Part shown: piece by piece, positions 16,254-64,000 of the stretch
Position numbering within the stretch: position 1 is the stretch's first letter
Layout: every line of letters begins with the position of its first letter
NCBI RefSeq assembly: GCF_032854445.1
Contig: NC_088295.1
Coordinates: forward strand, 11,333,385-11,397,384
DNA length: 64,000 bases
Origin: Liolophura sinensis
Taxonomy: Eukaryota > Mollusca > Polyplacophora > Chitonida > Chitonidae
Direction of reading: 5' to 3'
Program-made: the position numbers and the translations under genes
The notes under the pieces: generated by a model
Seen by the model: only the letters and a program-made list of their open reading frames with translations
Told to the model about the DNA's origin: nothing
Database searches by the model: none

Positions 16254-16307
16254 TCACACAACCTTGTAGCGGGACTTGTTGCCGGACTGATACGAATAGG
16301 AATTTTG
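16254..16307 (-). CDS. DDX46: DDX46 terminal coding exon 21
   Basis: Encodes [17 protein letters not shown] and a TGA stop, matching the family terminus (human QNSYQPTNKGRYKVL). Acceptor GTCTTTCAG. It is only 54 coding nt and is found by phase and homology. Confidence 0.93.
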   Translation of the reverse strand, partial: QNSYSYQSGNKSRYKVV

Positions 16308-19300
16308 CTGAAAGACAAAATAGAGCTCTTGATCGCTTAATATACGTTAATACATGCATATGGATATCAATCAATATCTAGGTAAAGTATTAATTCTAGG
16401 TACTACCTGTAAAGTTCAAACTCTTTCACTGCTAAAAGTATAAAAATGTTCTACTGTACCGTGTAACTTGTAAGAAATGTTAAGCAAATATTTTTGATTG
16501 GATACACTATAACATCGATGCACGAAACAATTTAACAAAAAGTTATTTAGAGTAAACATATCATTGAGAAAATTGAGGAGTTGGATGTCGTGACCTAAAG
16601 AAGTTTCTAGATGAATGCAGTGTCATTTGTGTTTCCTGAACATGGTGAAACAGGTGATTGGTAAAGTAATGTCAATGCAAGTTGTCTACCAGTTTTGACA
16701 AATCATGTGATGCAGCTGGTAATAACATAAGTTTGAATACATCTCAAACACCGAAATAAAATAATCTTTTTTATTTGATTGTTATTTCATTCAAAAAGTA
16801 CTGCAACCATGGAACAGCAATAAGTTATATAAGTGAAGGAACCTGGGCAGAGCCCAGAGCAAACCATCTCTACTGGGAATGTTCCATCCTGACAAAGCAC
16901 TGACTGAGCCAAACAGCTGGATTTGAATATGGGGCAAACAATAAGATGCTGATACGTTCATATGTACAGTAAAGAGGACTGTATGTACGTACGCTTTGCT
17001 TTTTTACAACTACTTTACAACTTTTTATTCATAGGGAATTATTTGGAGTGCATACACTTGCTGTGGCAGGGTGAGTCCCTGTCGCCACTGAAGTATCATG
17101 ATGAAGACACCAGACAAGACACACCATCCAGTCACATTACGCTGTAACCGGGCCAAGCATTCCTGTTTCCTTGCTCTCCTCAGGGCTGAGAGTCAAGCGT
17201 GGCAGCTACAAGTACTATACAGAGGATCGTGGGGTTTGACGTAACAGATCCTTTCACTGATCTACATATGTCAGGCTTCCTATTCCATAACATATTGATG
17301 AATACATCAGTCATTCTTCAAAAATTAGCTGAAGAACGTCAGTATTCCTCACAACCCTGCAAAAAGAGAGGTAAACAATGCAAAGTGATGATAAAAACAC
17401 AATGATAAGTTTTACAACTTACTAATCTAACTAACTCCTCCTTGATTAGCCTTGTGATTTCTTTCTTAGCTTTCTGTATTGCCAGTTCACTGGTGGCCTC
17501 AATGGCCAGGTACAGTTTACGCTCCCCTTCCTTGATCTCCTTGCCCGGTAGGATGTATGTCCCCCTGACTGTGATACCAGCCTCTGAATACTCACAGATC
17601 TGGGCCAAAGCCTCCTGAAACAGACACAAGTGTTGCCATATGTACAGGTATGTTCAAAACAGGTGTTAGATTAAGTAAAATACTCCAGAGGCTGATAATG
17701 AGTCTTGCCTCCAGGGATGCATGCAAACTGTTATTTATTCGAAATTGCTTCCCAAACGAGGAGTTGACATTTTGTTTTTCGCTTTATCTAGATACCAATT
17801 TTCGGTGTAGCCAGTCTTAAACAAGGAAGTCAATGATGAGGATCTGCAATAATGTAAATAGAAATACTTTGGCCAAACCAATGTTTGGGAAACTAACATC
17901 AACAGTATGACCATACACATGTATATTACACACAAAATAATACACATAAAGAAGGTGACTCTTATCATAAATGTAACAAATTATTTCGTACCTAATGCAT
18001 AATTTGTTTTACTGTTAAACTGTCAGCTTCATTTTAACTCAATATTCATTCTGATGTCATCATGGGTGAACAGTTTTCCCCATCACACTACTTGTGTGTT
18101 ATACTGTCATCATGGGTGAACAGTTTTCCCCATCACACTACTTGTGTGTTATACTGTCATCATGGGTGAACAGTTTTCCCCATCACACTACGTGTGTTAT
18201 ACTGTCATCATCGGTGAACAGTTTTCCCCATCACACTATTTGTGTGTTATACTGTCATCATGGGTGAACAGTTTTCCCTATCACACTACTTGTGTGTTAT
18301 ACTGTCATCATGGGTGAACAGTTTTCCCTATCACACTACTTGTGTGTTATACTGTCATCATGAGTGAACAGTTTTCCCCATCACACTACTTGTGTGTTAT
18401 ACTGTCATCATGAGTGAACAGTTTTCCCTATCACACTACTTGTGTGTTATACTGTCATCATGGGTGAACAGTTTTCCCCATCACACTACTTGTGTGTTAT
18501 ACTGTCATCATGAGTGAACAGTTTTCCCTATCACACTAATTGTGTGTTATACTGTCATCATGGGTGAACAGTTTTCCCCATCACACTACTTGTGTGTTAT
18601 ACTGTCATCATGGGTGAACAGTTTTCCCCATCACACTACTTGTGTGTTATACTGTCATCAAGGGTGAACAGTTTTCCCCATCACACTACTTGTGTGTTAT
18701 ACTGTCATCATGAGTGAACAGTTTTCCCTATCACACTATTTGTGTGTTATACTGTCATCATGGGTGAACAGTTTTCCCCATCACACTACTAGTGTGTTAT
18801 ACTGTCATCATGGGTGAACAGTTTTCCCCATCACACTACTAGTGTGTTATACTGTCATCATGAGTGAACAGTTTTCCCCATCACACTACTTGTGTGTTAT
18901 ATTGTCATCATGAGTGAACAGTTTTCCCCATCACACTACTTGTGTGTTATACTGTCATCATGAGTGAACAGTTTTCCCCATCACACTACTTGTGTGTTAT
19001 ACTGTCATCATGGGTGAACAGTTTTCCCCATCACACTACTTGTGTGTTATACTGTCACCATGGGTGAACAGTTTTCCCCATCACACTACTTGTGTGTTAT
19101 ACTGTCACCATGGGTGAACAGTTTTCAACATCACACTACTTGTGTGTTATACTGTCATCATGGGTGAACAGTTTTCCCTATCACACTATTTGTGTGTTAT
19201 ACTGTCATCATGGGTGAACAGTTTTCCCTATCACACTACTTGTGTGTTATACTGTCATCAAGGGTGAACAGTTTTCCCCATCACACTACTTGTGTGTTAT

Positions 19301-62843: not shown

Positions 62844-63688
62844 CTGCAAAATATTTGTAGTATTAGAATCGCACAATGTATTCTAGATTAGTTATCTTCC
62901 ATGAGTAACATGGGTAGTGCTTGTCGTCATACAGGAGTTATCTCCCCTGAGTTAGACCTTATCAGGTAAACCATTAAAATATTGTTTACATGTAGGTTTT
63001 AAAGTTGTGAATACTTATTCTGATGCTATTCTCACATAACCATGACGTCAAAGAAAATCCTCCCTGTTGAGAGGAGCAGGCATATTATTATTAAAAAGTG
63101 AATATGTAAGTCCATTCTTTTTAAGGGGTCACTGAATTTTCAGAAATCACTATGTATATAGAGAATTCAGCTGCTGGGTCAATCAGTGGTCAGGTTACAG
63201 CTTAACTTTCAATTGCTTACACATTGAAAACTGTTCACTCAAAAAAAATTGCTCACACAATGGACACGGTACAACAAAATATTACCAATATGGCTCTGGT
63301 AATTAAAATGCATGATTTAACTGTTTATCTTAAAAAGTATCCCTTGATATCAATGTTCATTATTGTAATTGGTGATTGAGTTTACTGGTTTAAATTCTGT
63401 GCTGCCTGTTGTCGCCACAACAACAATGCATTCAAGGAAAAACTTTCATCAAATTATCTCCACTTACAACTCATGGCCAGGGCTCTTTTTTCCAGACTTC
63501 ATCATGTATTCTAGATGGAGTTGTCCTATATTTATGCCGGATTAATTTTGAAAAAAATCATCCACACAATATTCAGGGAAAATTCAAACTGGGCATATTA
63601 AAGTAATGTTCCATTCTGGTATTTTTAGCCACTCAAAAATCTGTTTCCATGAAATCAAGTATCATGTATGTAAAATGTGGCCATGGAA
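62844..63688. other. RhoGAP intron, unique part
   Basis: AT-rich intron upstream of the last exon; nothing recognised. Confidence 0.5.
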
Positions 63689-64000
63689 AGCAAAAGCCTG
63701 AATATATGTATGAGTGAGCTACCTCTTTGTTCAGCCTGTGTTCATCACAAGCCTCTATAAGCATGTGAATACATGTATGAATGAACTACCTCTGTGTTCA
63801 GCCTGTGTTCATCACAAGCCTCTATAAGCATGTGAATACATGTATGAGTGAAATAGCTCTGTGTTCAGCCTGTGTTCATCACAAGCCTCTATCAATGTGT
63901 GAATACATGTACGAGTGAACTACCTCTGTGTTCAGCCTGTGTTCATCACAAGCCTCTATCAATGTGTGAATACATGTACGAGTGAACTAGCTCTGTGTTC
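63689..64000. repeat. 66-67 bp tandem array containing a RhoGAP exon fragment (about 4.5 copies, cut by window end)
   Basis: Units in plus orientation contain CTCTGTGTTCAGCCTGTGTT, CATCACAAGCCTCTAT and GTGAATACATGTATGAGTGA. On the minus strand they encode IEACDEHRLNTE, and in the copies nearest the window end also the preceding Leu (TLIEACDEHRLNTE). This is what should stand just before the GLFR arginine finger in a RhoGAP domain and directly before the visible exon's LPG. The array lies in the intron on the 5' side of that exon, so its parent exon is presumably just beyond 64000. Confidence 0.88.

Follow-up and report, generated by a model that had tools for sequence, protein, structure and literature searches.

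Tandem arrays in several introns of the chiton DDX46 gene have units that combine the end of the adjacent exon with that exon's 5′ splice site. Do splice junctions seed such arrays, or do arrays that arise throughout the genome sometimes come to lie on a junction? We address this question with the whole 64,000-nucleotide stretch analysed here (the window) and with genes elsewhere in the assembly. The assembly (GCA_032854445.1; 609,495,693 bp in 632 scaffolds in the excerpted text of PMC11068029) was first named Liolophura japonica, later corrected to L. sinensis (PMC12441733). Tandem arrays were listed by TRF. Two genes of the window are concerned:

16254–44109, minus strand: coding region of DDX46, a PRP5-like DEAD-box ATPase, with 21 exons separated by GT-AG introns; the frame is open over 1034 aa.
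61248–62842, minus strand: final coding exon of a gene with a RhoGAP domain (ORF 61250–62887 matches Pfam RhoGAP at E 5.7e-34; acceptor read by eye).

The rebuilt 1034-aa DDX46 model has no internal stop, and all of its introns are GT-AG. Its best PDB match is human DDX46 (6y50_p, 1222.9 bits), and the alignment covers residues 41–813 of the 814-aa DDX46 part. The last 60 nt of each exon were aligned against the following intron, and exon starts against the preceding intron. The ends of exons 6, 12 and 13 score 83, 72 and 77, respectively, against their own introns. The remaining 17 donors score at most 18, all 20 exon starts score at most 22, and the shuffle control (20 shuffles per intron, donor-side query) reaches a maximum of 26. 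Judged from these alignments, it is certain that the derivation of the intronic copies from the exon is beyond chance. The features are as follows (slashes in motifs mark splice junctions):

36342–36473, minus strand: DDX46 exon 6; the 76-bp array stems from its terminal ~62 nt (score 83), and the exon end aligns with human DDX46.
30033–36390, minus strand: array of 76 bp x 83, comprising the exon 6 end, its GTGAGT donor and the intron start (TRF).
25600–25900, minus strand: exon 12 end and donor, with two degenerate intronic copies (+118, +221; score 72; two 25-mer matches).
24250–25038, minus strand: array of 85 bp x 9.6, comprising the exon 13 end, its GTG/GTGAGT donor and the intron start (TRF; score 77).

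The preliminary description had reported arrays of exon end plus 5′ splice site at these three exons. The scores bear this out, although at exon 12 the array amounts to two degenerate copies, which are absent from the TRF calls. It had also placed the array ends exactly at the true junction; instead, the donor arrays continue past the junction, roughly 45–62 nt into the exons. The 76-bp array occupies most of intron 6 (7248 bp), and the exon 13 array is partly built of 243-bp higher-order units (97% matches). Because the source exons align with human DDX46, copying ran from exon to intron. Recruitment of an exon end from an array was rejected as a candidate, since the DDX46 exon ends align with the human protein. 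One copy of each exon end is kept in frame, within the open 1034-aa model, and the others lie in the adjoining intron. The copies are local in position as well as exonic in origin, with conserved exons as their source.

Tandem duplication of exon segments bearing AGGT is a published model of intron gain (excerpts of PMC4974935), and the preliminary description had pointed to this route. AG/GT is indeed present in the units, and as in the model the duplication spans an intron–exon boundary; the difference is that no new intron is seen in the chiton. Introns 6, 12 and 13 each retain an acceptor of their own as well as sequence outside the array, which means that the arrays extend introns already present. 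That intron gain is under way here is therefore extremely unlikely. A new intron bounded by duplicated AG/GT was considered for these three introns and rejected on the same ground.

The copied donors differ in how well they are preserved. Among the 82 intronic copies of the exon 6 end, GT is kept in 28 and reads AT in 54; the full true donor, GAG/GTGAGT, is found in 5 of the 82. At exon 13, GTG/GTGAGT is intact in all six recovered intronic copies (6/6). When exons 6 and 13 are read onward into their arrays, stop codons are encountered. In intron 6, thirteen 400-bp blocks were tested; two of them match the block lying 1600 bp beyond at 99.8 and 100% identity, so that some change of copy number in this array looks recent. 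An assembly artefact, with repeats collapsed or expanded, could be suspected: the excerpted text of PMC11068029 gives 14x HiFi coverage with a mean read of 8,347 bp, which could leave the 6.3-kb array with a wrong copy number. The other described DDX46 and RhoGAP arrays, however, are shorter than 2 kb and hence below one read length, the copies within arrays differ from one another, and several loci share the same design. We regard an artefact as highly improbable.

DDX46 contains further arrays in which no exon is copied or which lie away from the junctions:

29100–29658, minus strand: pyrimidine-rich array of 41 bp x 14 before the exon 7 acceptor, stopping 6 nt short of it; no exon copied (TRF and sequence).
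28060–28258, minus strand: array of 31 bp x 6.4 before exon 9, stopping 6 nt short; no exon copied (TRF and sequence).
18055–19850, minus strand: array of 50 bp x 36 in intron 19, beginning 34 nt past the donor; no exon copied (TRF and sequence).
21591–22001, minus strand: array of 37 bp x 11 inside intron 16, away from junctions (TRF).
36520–36651, minus strand: degenerate 13/25-bp array in intron 5, 46 nt upstream of exon 6 (TRF).

The arrays before exons 7 and 9, which had been described as abutting their acceptors, stop short of the exon, and what they copy is pyrimidine tract. The exon 7 acceptor has an intron-side match at -50..-25. For the exon 19 donor, the 25-mer junction test described below has no copy among its matches. 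Some units of the intron 8 array (28060–28258, minus strand) consist of pyrimidines followed by TATAG/GTAAT, which we take to be the form of a recursive splice site; chance may account for it. The 37-bp unit of intron 16 has an 87–91% match 30 kb away on the opposite strand (51554–51591), as if it came from a dispersed element.

Units that combine an exon edge with its boundary also occur outside DDX46. The RhoGAP gene carries one at a donor:

63699–64000, minus strand: portion of the RhoGAP donor array that lies inside the window (whole array 67 bp x 25; TRF); the array runs on to window coordinate 65381.

Most of the array lies beyond the window, as does the end of its source exon, at 65383. 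The exon ends in ...GLETEGIF and is followed by the donor GTAGCT; the 67-bp unit aligns, with gaps, to the exon end plus donor. The earlier claim that this array copies coding sequence is confirmed, and the array also spans the donor and carries internal deletions. In the myosin genes, four of 47 donors are copied (C12:686729, C12:684214, C1:26644459 and C3:10775981), one of them, C3:10775981, as a single extra copy. The true-donor letters recur in 6/6 decoys at C12:686729, 4/5 at C1:26644459 and 1/1 at C3:10775981; at C12:684214 they recur in 1/16, with GT kept in 16/16. A further myosin exon on C11 (...NYHYIKQGGDHK/GTGAGT) is followed by 12 intronic copies in 82-bp units, 11 of which have decoys identical to the true donor; it was left out of all counts because it was discovered via its array. 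A mirror case at an acceptor is provided by the L007 DEAD-box exon (match C23:59442–59720, minus strand), which starts CACAG/GCTGCGTTTCTG and reads AAFLLPVLTG. Upstream of it, 47-bp units in 12.8 copies (TRF) copy the acceptor plus the exon start; 11 exon-side copies lie upstream, and AG is intact in 6 of them. Both types of boundary are thus affected, as in amphioxus. Taken together, these loci support the view that exon-plus-boundary units are real, local in origin, and present in unrelated genes (DDX46, RhoGAP, myosins and the L007 DEAD-box gene). Since the myosin and RhoGAP genes show the same pattern, the spliceosomal role of the DDX46 ATPase looks coincidental, as the preliminary description had allowed.

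The preservation of decoys bears on whether a splice-site array could be a selected splicing switch or decoy device. The match of decoys to the true donor at exon 13 (6/6), at the C11 myosin exon (11/12) and at C12:686729 (6/6) would be in keeping with such a role. The pattern is, however, common to unrelated genes, GT is lost in 54 of the 82 exon 6 copies, and exons 6 and 13 extended into their arrays run into stops. A regulated feature is therefore very unlikely. So many decoys are intact that their decay cannot explain accurate splicing in most cases, and the arrays raise the question of how splicing ignores so many good decoy signals. Those at C11, at C12:686729 and at exon 13 are natural tests of how the spliceosome chooses among identical sites.

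Whether arrays favour junctions depends on how densely arrays occur. With TRF units of at least 10 bp counted, arrays take up 20.3% of the window and, across 168 kb of myosin regions, 17.8%; the assembly paper's table, in the excerpted text of PMC11068029, assigns 0.08% to 'other (simple repeat, microsatellite, RNA)' and 14.04% to unclassified repeats. With 18–20% of the sampled sequence in tandem array, some arrays must fall on junctions. Of 81 myosin-head matches, the 47 that lie in 20 regions (the 168 kb) formed the myosin sample, and 34 lie outside them; the junctions of the sample were predicted by simple scores, and some may be off. A junction was counted as copied when a 25-base segment over it recurred with at least 19/25 matches within 2 kb on the intron side. 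By this test, 4/47 donors and 2/46 acceptors are copied in the myosins, and 3/20 donors and 0/20 acceptors in DDX46. At 15 extra loci (seven of those 34 myosin matches and eight DEAD-box matches, with 1.5-kb flanks), 0/15 donors, several of which score poorly and may be false junctions, and 1/14 acceptors are copied. In the RhoGAP gene, read by eye, 1/3 donors and 0/4 acceptors are copied.

These counts were compared with a founder-weighted null of 2.0%, obtained from 5914 random positions in the myosin regions, each counted once per array family. A raw null of 17.7%, the share of random 25-mers that are repeated, was rejected because it counts every copy of an array separately. Among independent genes, 4/62 donors are copied, as compared to 1.26 expected (P = 0.037); addition of the 15 loci moved this excess from P = 0.016 to 0.037. 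For independent acceptors, the count is 1 to 3 of 58–60, depending on the treatment of weak or mutually exclusive matches (P 0.70–0.12). The acceptor match at C12:667175 is one weak copy and enters only the upper tallies. Set aside were the acceptor match at C1:26643291 and the exon-side donor match at C1:26642195, which belong to two versions of one myosin exon; C1:26642195 fails the junction-segment test on which the count of 4/47 is based. The two are successive versions of a muscle-myosin exon and probably mutually exclusive exons. Donors and acceptors of independent genes together give 5/120 to 6/121, as compared to about 2.4 expected (P 0.098–0.038). Adding the genes of the window raises the donors to 8/85, of which 23 come from a window chosen for the feature. 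A Fisher test of donors versus acceptors gives P 0.37–0.68 for independent genes, which is not significant, and a borderline 0.034–0.099 with the window genes.

The result varies with the threshold. At 20 and 21 matches, the myosin sample gives 4/47 donors and 0/46 acceptors against a null of 1.8%; at 18, 5/47 donors against 3.3%. At 17, 6/47 donors stand against 8.8%; the excess is gone, and background swamps the test. In DDX46, five of eight arrays lie over a junction or within 10 nt of one, as compared to 1.9 expected (P = 0.016), in a gene picked for its junction arrays; for this null each array was collapsed to one unit, and both the eight and the five, which include exon 12, are manual entries. 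That arrays prefer junctions has only modest support, and a bias for donors over acceptors is not established.

Splice-site words were also counted genome-wide as tandem triples, i.e., three words spaced 20–50 bases apart, and related to single sites. The donor word AGGTGAGT forms 1277 triples per 24391 single sites, as compared to 507/18803 for the reversed word (1.94x), and a second donor word, AGGTAAGT, 626/26576, as compared to 468/29085 for its reversal (1.46x). For the acceptor word TTTTCAGG and its reversal, the figures are 320/40785 and 142/19003 (1.05x). These are counts of matches rather than of arrays, in which large arrays weigh heavily, and they carry no P value. Triples of CAGGTAAG (1248 vs 336) were left unused because single-site counts are lacking for this word. 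Among the first 100 listed places, a count by eye gives about 5 clusters of at least three for either donor word and 3 for the control, which is no clear difference.

These data allow three readings of where the arrays start to be weighed. If place were purely a matter of chance, minisatellites would begin at random with no preference for junctions. The saturation of genes with arrays, the combined count of 5/120 (P 0.098), the eye-counted clusters without a clear donor excess, and the selection of DDX46 for the feature are all consistent with this idea; the independent donors (4/62, P 0.037) and the 1.5–1.9x enrichment of donor words, with none for the acceptor word, speak against it. We give it somewhat less than an even chance, and it is a stricter form of the explanation favoured below rather than a contradiction of it. 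Alternatively, duplication could be directed to junctions, with splice sites made hot spots by R-loops, by AGGT microhomology or by damage linked to transcription or splicing. The small donor excess, the donor-word enrichment and AGGTGG, which may be shared at the exon 6 breakpoint, would fit. The excess, however, could equally reflect noise or survival bias; of the eight DDX46 arrays, three lie away from junctions; and microhomology is indistinguishable from the copied stretch itself. Such a process seems rather unlikely. Its boldest form is unlikely as well: chiton splice sites, chiefly 5′ ones, would be true hot spots of tandem duplication, produced by a process coupled to transcription or splicing and affecting about one donor in fifteen, the spliceosome would routinely pick the exon-joined site among many identical ones, and intron length would be partly array-driven. 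The outcome at the 15 extra loci (0/15 donors, 1/14 acceptors) lowered the probability of hot spots and of junction-directed duplication, and raised that of pure chance. The idea that acceptors are spared was dropped after the acceptor copy at these loci. The earlier proposal of a lineage process that duplicates boundaries holds insofar as the units are real, occur in unrelated genes and show some recent change, but the data do not demonstrate a duplication of boundaries as such, independent genes showing a small excess.

The explanation that we favour, and consider likely, is the ordinary birth of minisatellites in a repeat-saturated genome, sometimes on an exon border, which yields arrays of the 'mirage' type. 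The junction arrays would be born by the same local duplication that fills the chiton genome with minisatellites. A short tandem duplication would happen to span the exon edge and splice site, taking in some 16 to 60 or more nt of exon along with intron, and would leave one copy joined to the exon and another in the intron. Unequal exchange or slippage would then multiply the intronic copies, up to 83 units. The coding frame is unharmed because a single copy is contiguous with the exon, and the array would be tolerated. Splicing presumably keeps using the exon-joined copy, as reported for amphioxus. If donor cases are commoner, the reason may be that transcription reaches the true donor ahead of its decoys, a suggestion to be read alongside the existence of an acceptor case.

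The preliminary description knew of no earlier account of the pattern at such density, yet arrays of this kind are known. In the excerpts of PMC3087553 and PMC3902484, amphioxus 'mirages' are minisatellite-like tandem duplications of exon–intron boundaries on either side of the exon, many of whose units carry AG/GT signals. They are named there from Adh3, the globins BflGb6/BflGb9, troponin C and PGBD5, show length instability, and are said to leave regular splicing undisturbed. The chiton units likewise span the boundary (DDX46 exons 6, 12 and 13, RhoGAP, the four counted myosin exons and L007), the true exon is kept once with its copies in the adjoining intron, and both 5′ and 3′ boundaries are hit, with L007 as the one clear acceptor case. 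The chiton differs in having up to 83 copies and four donors touching one 64-kb window, as compared to the several single genes named in amphioxus. As to length instability, the chiton is known from one haplotype, in which blocks 1600 bp from each other are nearly identical, a hint of recent change. By its sequence features, the structure is of the amphioxus-mirage kind, a kind already known.

Human segmental duplications offer a second comparison. According to the excerpted text of PMC2812944, they contain internal tandem repeats that are minisatellites (mean unit about 30 bp), with exon–intron boundaries among their places, vary in recent paralogs, and are said to form novel introns via cryptic splice sites. 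Minisatellites at exon–intron boundaries are thus common to both, as far as that text goes; the difference is that the chiton arrays represent growth of existing introns in conserved genes. No reports of boundary arrays in chitons or other molluscs were found in literature searches with little coverage of subscription journals. What is new here is another phylum, the high density and the many intact decoy splice sites. The occurrence of the lancelet structure in a distant phylum suggests that a minisatellite-rich genome will produce it, and the arrays show intron growth through the copying of exon edges.

Several further observations were made along the way. At 9317–10400 of the window (plus strand), 33-bp and 75-bp tandem arrays have in-frame open stretches of 134 and 122 aa, and the 33-bp array has coiled-coil-type matches (KMP11, Apolipoprotein); they may be a repeat-coding exon or a mere open array. 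At about 49600–54420, glycine-arginine-rich coding-like stretches (GGRGGRG, plus-strand reading) lie near the arrays at 52957–53089 and 55601–56156. Elsewhere in the assembly, C632 has one COX1 match, and C99 has seven, about 15.5 kb apart and with in-frame TGA, resembling head-to-tail mitochondrial genomes.
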